Shown: positions 2,553 through 3,282 of the stretch, piece after piece
How the letters are laid out: each line of letters starts with the position of its first letter
Numbering within the stretch: the first letter of the stretch is position 1
Assembly (NCBI GenBank): GCA_030650845.1
Contig: JAUSDC010000226.1
Span: forward strand, 1-42,871
DNA length: 42,871 nt
Reading direction: 5' to 3'
DNA from: Candidatus Methanoperedens sp.
GTDB lineage: Archaea > Halobacteriota > Methanosarcinia > Methanosarcinales > Methanoperedenaceae
The notes under the pieces: model-generated
The model's input: the letters and a program-made list of their open reading frames with translations, nothing else
Databases searched by the model: none
Told to the model about the DNA's origin: nothing
Program-made: the position numbers and the translations under genes

Positions 2553-2693
2553 ATGTCAAAACTTAATAAGAGAAGTCTTGAAAGAAAGGGGGAAAAAAAA
2601 CAGAAGATCCAGGACACCAAATTGATGGAGGAGCATCTTGTGGATTTAACAAAAGTAAGGGGAGAGCTGGAAGAGCTGTCTGAGGAAAGGTGA
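2553..2693 (+). CDS. Small charged helical protein, 46 aa
   Basis: The start at 2553 is chosen because GAGGT lies 7 bases upstream; longer versions from 2511 have no ribosome binding site. The product is almost entirely Lys, Glu, Arg and Leu and should form one amphipathic or coiled-coil helix. Its stop overlaps the GTG start of the ubiquitin-like gene (GTGA), so the two are translationally coupled. No family is recognised. As first gene of a four-gene mini-operon it could be a partner of the sulfur carrier, but this is inference. Confidence 0.55.
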   Translation: MSKLNKRSLERKGEKKQKIQDTKLMEEHLVDLTKVRGELEELSEER

Positions 2694-2992
2694 AGGTAAA
2701 AGTAAAGATCCTTTCGGGTGGAGTCAAAGAGCAGATAATGGATGTTGACGCAGATGAGACTTATGAAGAGCTGTTGCATTCGCTGCATATCAATCCTGAA
2801 ATAGTAATCGTATTTCGTAGCGGTGTTCCAGTTCCCCTGGATGAGAAACTGACATGTGATGATGTGGACATCCTGAGAGTAGTCACGGGAGGAAATTATG
2901 GTTACGCGAGGAAATCGATAACTATAAATTCTCATAACGAATTCAACATTATGGAGACGGCAACGAAGGGCACCGTTGATATAAATGAATAA
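2690..2992 (+). CDS. Ubiquitin-like sulfur carrier (MoaD/ThiS/SAMP type) with C-terminal extension
   Basis: Residues 1-68 form a beta-grasp domain of the archaeal ThiS/MoaD type: MKVKVKILSGG, the NPEIVIVFRSGVPVP turn, and DILRVVTGG. Such proteins normally end at this Gly-Gly, which is activated by an E1-like enzyme and used for sulfur transfer (thiolated tRNA, molybdopterin, thiamine) or for protein conjugation. Here the frame continues for 32 more residues after Gly67-Gly68 (polar, no known domain). The tail would have to be removed before the Gly-Gly could work, or the protein is not a carrier. GTG start with GAGGAAAG just upstream. The stop region overlaps the next small gene. A lost stop codon is the simple alternative. 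Confidence 0.8.
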   Translation: MKVKVKILSGGVKEQIMDVDADETYEELLHSLHINPEIVIVFRSGVPVPLDEKLTCDDVDILRVVTGGNYGYARKSITINSHNEFNIMETATKGTVDINE

Positions 2993-3110
2993 AAAAATAT
3001 CTGAAATCCATCAAAAACGACCTGTAATGATAAAGGGGGACAAAAAAGAAATGCAAGAGCTTGAATATTGGGTAATAGAGGAATTCTATGTTCCATATCA
3101 GGCATCTTAA
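2985..3110 (+). CDS. Small hypothetical protein, 41 aa
   Basis: The ATG at 2985 overlaps the stop of the ubiquitin-like gene (ATGAATAA). The 41-residue product is basic at its N-terminus and acidic-aromatic at its C-terminus (EYWVIEEFYVPYQAS). No family is recognised. It is followed after 16 bases by the zinc-ribbon gene. The tight overlap suggests a real coupled gene, but the short length leaves doubt; an internal ATG after position 3026 has AAAGGGG next to it and is not a better start. Confidence 0.4.
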   Translation: MNKKISEIHQKRPVMIKGDKKEMQELEYWVIEEFYVPYQAS

Positions 3111-3126
3111 TTTTTTTTGATGATAT

Positions 3127-3282
3127 ATGGAAGTCACTGGAATTTGTAGTATTTGTGGGCGTCCGGGAAAGCTTCAAACATGCATGTTGTGTGGAAGACC
3201 GGTATGTCAGAGGTGTATTACTTCAGAAGGAGTATGCACCATATGCGCCCAGGGAAGGCATTATTCGGCTTCAAGGACATAG
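3127..3282 (+). CDS. Small zinc-ribbon protein, 51 aa
   Basis: The frame encodes eight cysteines in four CxxC pairs: CSIC, CMLC, CQRC and CTIC, separated by short loops, which is a compact double zinc finger of treble-clef or ribbon type. The motif CGRPGKLQTCMLCGRPVCQRC is typical of small archaeal Zn-binding proteins. It closes the plus-strand mini-operon with the ubiquitin-like gene and runs 22 bases into the 3' end of the convergent DHH gene. Role unknown; RNA or protein binding is possible. The reading frame is short but the cysteine pattern makes it very likely to be real. Confidence 0.75.
   Translation: MEVTGICSICGRPGKLQTCMLCGRPVCQRCITSEGVCTICAQGRHYSASRT

Follow-up and report, generated by a model that had tools for sequence, protein, structure and literature searches.

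A SAMP2-family gene of Candidatus Methanoperedens that appears to read on into the promoter of its neighbour

Activation of a SAMP2-family ubiquitin-like (Ubl) protein by an E1 enzyme needs a free C-terminal Gly-Gly, which the Ubl encoded at one locus of Candidatus Methanoperedens lacks as encoded and would gain only through cleavage; how such a frame arose, and whether its product still works, is the question that the locus raises. The window, that is, the whole stretch of DNA analysed (42,871 nucleotides), belongs to a genome denoted here as G000, its relatives likewise being labelled with G-numbers. In the window, hlx46 (2553–2693, plus strand), a partner gene for a charged, predicted helical protein of 46 residues, is followed by the SAMP2-family frame (2690–2992, plus strand), which starts with GTG, encodes 100 residues and stops with TAA at 2990–2992. 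The original prediction that this frame continues for 32 residues past Gly67-Gly68 agrees with the ORF coordinates: the body (2690–2893, plus strand) closes with the two glycine codons at 2888–2893, and the tail frame with its stop (2894–2992, plus strand) follows, conserved in neither frame nor length. Downstream lie s41 (2985–3110, plus strand), which encodes a conserved 41-residue protein, and Zn (3127–3282, plus strand), which encodes 51 residues with four CxxC motifs and overlaps the end of a convergent DHH gene. Starts and stops had been described as overlapping throughout; hlx46 and SAMP2 do share 4 nt, and SAMP2 and s41 share 8 nt, but s41 and Zn stand 16 nt apart. Judged by their conservation, all four ORFs are real genes. 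On the minus strand, a 372-residue ORF (1274–2392) has no Pfam match and a chance-level NCBIfam match (E 0.11), and was not seen near SAMP2 in relatives.

The body of the Ubl matches Pfam PF21965 over residues 1–65 (E 2.2e-16; 60.5 bits, cut-off 27), and a profile of its family matches the SAMP2 structures 4hrs and 2l32 (both from Haloferax volcanii) as well as 5lda. Given that it scores below the equivalog cut-off of NCBIfam NF041919 (53.6 of 70 bits), we file it as SAMP2-family by homology and do not equate it in function with H. volcanii SAMP2. Gly67-Gly68 falls at the end of the domain and aligns with a Gly-Gly that is invariant among 11 aligned sequences. When SAMP2 ends were read across 29 genomes of the genus Methanoperedens, 17 were found to stop exactly after ...VVTGG, so that close relatives with an exact Gly-Gly end, which the original prediction had named as refuting a new processed Ubl set, do exist. 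Nine carry short tails (GG-NR in five, GG-NRYL in two and GG-RR in two) and three carry long ones (32 residues in the window, 36 in G011 and 14 in G016). Outside the genus, nearly all SAMP2 genes read close with Gly-Gly or with just one terminal Gly, the exceptions being G034, with 10 residues past the end, and four others with one to three. Single-Gly ends (ASQG, VSSG and VSAG), each followed directly by the stop, occur in several lineages of the class (L133, L139, L155, L158 and similar loci). The two-residue GG-RR tail is independent (L036 and L044, in G006 and G015), and there the SAMP2 stop overlaps the start of moaA.

The DNA at the junction records how the long tail came about. Species with GG-NR read GGA GGA AAT CGA TAA, whereas an alignment of junction DNA shows GGA GGA, 19 extra bases and then AATCGATAAC in the window. 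These extra bases (2897–2915, plus strand; TATGGTTACGCGAGGAAAT) form the second copy of a tandem duplication whose first copy is the end of SAMP2 (2878–2896, plus strand; AGTAGTCACGGGAGGAAAT), and they are missing from G023 and all other relatives. The copies are identical at 14 of 19 bases, a level equalled by none of 2,000 random adjacent 19-mer pairs drawn from the window. The other long-tailed genomes hold 31 (G011) and 20 (G016) extra bases at the same junction, with a common core, the duplicated GGTTACSSGAGGAAAT; as insertions of 19 and 31 give one frame and 20 another, the tails differ. The old stop TAA survives at 2919–2921 but, having been put out of frame by the duplication, it lets the SAMP2 frame run on. 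The alternative offered originally, namely that a stop codon had been lost, is thus borne out, and the indel near 2894–2900, named originally as the other refutation of a new processed Ubl set, is present as an insertion at the start of the tail in three assemblies. In a FastTree phylogeny of hlx46, SAMP2, s41 and Zn combined, the genomes with long tails form a trio whose nearest relative is G023 (NR), nested, with some weak nodes, in a group whose every species has at least NR; within the trio, the node that joins G011 to the remaining two has a low support of 0.23.

What the displaced frame runs through becomes clear from the distribution of s41 and Zn. Among 60 relatives, the former occurs in 38 and the latter in 46; within the genus, 29 of 31 genomes have s41. 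At each of the 29 loci read in the genus and family, s41 directly precedes Zn. The C terminus of s41 is strongly conserved (ExWxIEEYFVPYQAS); searched against Pfam, Zn gives merely sub-threshold zinc-finger matches. The hlx46-SAMP2 and s41-Zn pairs stand side by side in no more than 12 of the 29 Methanoperedens genomes, so the proposed four-gene set dissolves into two independent pairs. A four-gene operon as a unit is rejected, s41-Zn having its own promoter and being located away from SAMP2 at 17 loci of the genus and family. Where the pairs are separate, the gene after SAMP2 is moaA or another, in other Methanoperedens mostly moaA; the position of moaA directly after hlx46-SAMP2 points to a molybdenum-cofactor role for SAMP2 in those genomes.

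In the 17 s41 loci without SAMP2, the sequence AAATCGATA-CTTTAAAT-CTTATAA is almost invariant at a distance of 73–86 nt from the ATG, whereas its immediate 5′ flank is unconserved; in form, we take it for an archaeal BRE/TATA box. The corresponding BRE/TATA-like element of the s41-Zn unit in the window (AAATCGATAACTATAAAT; 2912–2929, plus strand; 73 nt before the ATG) lies inside the tail frame and is near-invariant across those 17 loci and the 12 with SAMP2. It is followed by the 5′ leader of s41 (2952–2984, plus strand). Across the s41 loci, such a leader carries GGAGAC. Among the 29 s41 loci, a CATCC...GGATG hairpin in this leader, possibly an RNA control element, is present in most Methanoperedens and decayed in the window's group. 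Residues past Gly-Gly occur in 10 of the 12 genomes in which SAMP2 abuts the promoter and in only 2 of the 17 in the genus where a different gene lies downstream of SAMP2. In the seven genomes with NR or NRYL ends, the TAA that stops SAMP2 falls within this promoter. Given that abutment thus tracks the presence of such residues, the NR tail and the long tail alike are promoter translated into protein, and on this pattern of conservation the tail DNA is the promoter and leader of s41-Zn.

Other accounts of the tail need to be weighed against this. An assembly or sequencing error at the SAMP2 stop codon might be suspected, as the assemblies are drafts, mostly metagenome-derived, and the extra base of G016 relative to G000 could be an artefact (coverage 5.4). 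However, three independent assemblies have the insertion at one place, with the same duplicated sequence and with lineage-specific differences, so sequencing error does not account for the tail; we regard this explanation as exceedingly improbable. Alternatively, the tail could be a selected propeptide of a new processed Ubl system of four genes, one of the readings originally put forward. The insertions in G000 and G011 do keep the same frame, and the 8-nt overlap of the tail with the start of s41 could couple translation. Yet the 14-residue tail of G016 is in a different frame, relatives end at Gly-Gly with an indel where the tail starts, gene order is not kept within the genus and the same DNA is conserved as a promoter in loci without the Ubl. 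Tested as a conserved part of the protein, the tail failed: lengths and frames differ, and over 27 codons G000 and G011 show one synonymous against seven non-synonymous changes. In these comparisons, the tail shows no detectable constraint at the protein level; a conserved propeptide is rejected on length, frame and substitution pattern, and the system as proposed seems very unlikely.

The third possibility, that the tailed SAMP2 is on its way to loss, deserves more weight, given that it would have no free Gly-Gly and that G000 encodes two further Ubls, of MoaD type and both ending exactly in SGG, which could cover its work; the differences among the three tails would fit such decay as well. 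The body, however, does not behave like a dying gene. Its dN/dS is about 0.1 (range 0.07–0.2); G000 and G011 differ by 22 synonymous and 7 non-synonymous changes (dN/dS 0.07 at dS 0.69), and G000 and G016 give 0.13. None of the three long-tailed bodies contains a stop or frameshift, and hlx46 is also intact. We therefore consider impending loss unlikely. Between G000 and G011, nucleotide identity is higher in the tail (90%) than in the body (86%), which, together with the substitution pattern, indicates that selection maintains the body for its protein sequence and the tail for its DNA sequence. The observation of a tail is real, but these 32 residues do not define a novel class of processed Ubl; they are an accident of genome compaction in one lineage, and the SAMP2 protein is otherwise ordinary.

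We thus favour, as the probable explanation overall, a functional SAMP2 accompanied by hlx46, with a tail that arose by duplication into the s41-Zn promoter. On this account, a SAMP2-family sulfur carrier or modifier is co-translated with its small partner hlx46, and in this lineage its stop came from the s41-Zn promoter (GGA GGA AAT CGA TAA, that is, GG-NR-stop). The common ancestor of the three closest genomes acquired a tandem duplication of 19 bp between Gly68 and that promoter; TAA was pushed out of frame, and the frame now passes through promoter and leader to a stop overlapping the start of s41. Since the body is still under purifying selection, an active C terminus must still be made. 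A JAMM1-type protease might free Gly-Gly before activation by E1, and the matured SAMP2 would then act in sulfur transfer or protein conjugation, the functions established for the family in other archaea.

The genome encodes candidates for these steps. Neither E1 nor tRNA thiolase lies beside the genes, as originally noted, but a single UbaA-type E1 is found elsewhere in G000 (at C219; ThiF E 1.4e-85), and the suggested search for JAMM genes yielded two, at C130 and C230, the former with the full HxHP...SxxD motif of a catalytic enzyme (HTHPVSSAVPSLWD). In G011, only contig-edge or weak fragments of E1, and no full-length copy, were found. Of 60 relatives, 59 encode a JAMM, tail-less ones among them, so that its presence is uninformative as a marker of the tail and counts as permissive evidence only. 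The earlier argument that a protease must free Gly-Gly keeps some force, given that residues past Gly-Gly have persisted through a group of species, with the body under purifying selection, and that a catalytic JAMM is encoded; from this analysis, we lean slightly towards a metalloprotease of JAMM1 type that would cut behind Gly-Gly ahead of activation by E1.

The partner gene hlx46 belongs to a family of 40–60 residues with a conserved start (MSKxxKRxxERKGxKK...) and, searched against Pfam, NCBIfam and PDB sequences, gave no match above threshold. When 197 genomes from the phylum were searched with a separate profile for each family, hlx46 turned up in 70 and SAMP2 in 179. Where both were located (65 genomes), they are neighbours on one strand with hlx46 first in 64, so that hlx46 adjoins SAMP2 in 64 of the 70 genomes that bear it. 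In G064, the two are fused into a single protein of 104 residues (L190:461–772), for which an AlphaFold model gives a long helix and a confident beta-grasp domain (pTM 0.57, a value on which we make no claim about docking of the two parts); TtuB and MTH1743 were among the Ubl-fold relatives recovered by a fold search. Copies of hlx46 without a recognisable SAMP2 beside them occur in one genus (G041, G123, G128 and G196) and G080, as read directly in G041 and G080, which implies that hlx46 need not act solely through SAMP2. Its lysine- and arginine-rich single helix suggests, from composition, a partner or RNA-binding peptide. We raise, as a tentative and rather doubtful proposal, the combined claim that hlx46 is a dedicated, phylum-wide component of the SAMP2 system (a helical partner that binds either SAMP2 itself or the RNA or enzyme that SAMP2 targets) and that every SAMP2 of one Methanoperedens group is a precursor needing a cut after Gly-Gly. 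A literature search returned no paper on both Methanoperedens and SAMP2.

Taken together, these observations indicate that a compact genome can fuse the end of a protein to the promoter of the next gene, and they provide natural SAMP2 alleles with 2, 4, 14, 32 or 36 residues after Gly-Gly, a set with which to ask whether archaeal JAMMs are obligate SAMP maturases or just remove conjugates. The hlx46 family, an unannotated lead in the archaeal ubiquitin-like system, may outweigh the tail in value.

Among known systems, the protein resembles the SAMP2 family (PF21965; H. volcanii and Pyrococcus SAMP2) in its above-cut-off domain score and in the Gly-Gly that ends the domain, and differs in that this Gly-Gly is not the C terminus of the encoded protein. 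The Ubl sulfur carriers QbsE and HcyS likewise have a few residues after Gly-Gly, short tails that a JAMM protease removes; they are bacterial, however, and have a dedicated adjacent protease. Relative to archaeal MoaD/ThiS neighbourhoods, as represented in Table 1 of PMC2948915, moaA after hlx46-SAMP2 in other Methanoperedens is the point of likeness, the window's group differs in having s41-Zn downstream, and an hlx46-like association is not evident in that table. The closest parallel in kind comes from Ca. Caldiarchaeum subterraneum, in which the SAMP precursors Csub_C0702 and Csub_C1603 are cut by a SAMP-type JAMM, CsJAMM (PMC6043591): here too an archaeal SAMP has residues past Gly-Gly and a JAMM is encoded in the genome. 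In that species, the JAMM (Csub_C0703) is numbered next to a SAMP (Csub_C0702) and cleavage was shown (PMC6043591), whereas the JAMM genes of G000 lie elsewhere in the genome and cleavage is deduced; and unlike those precursors, the SAMP2 of the window carries a tail that is a translated promoter.
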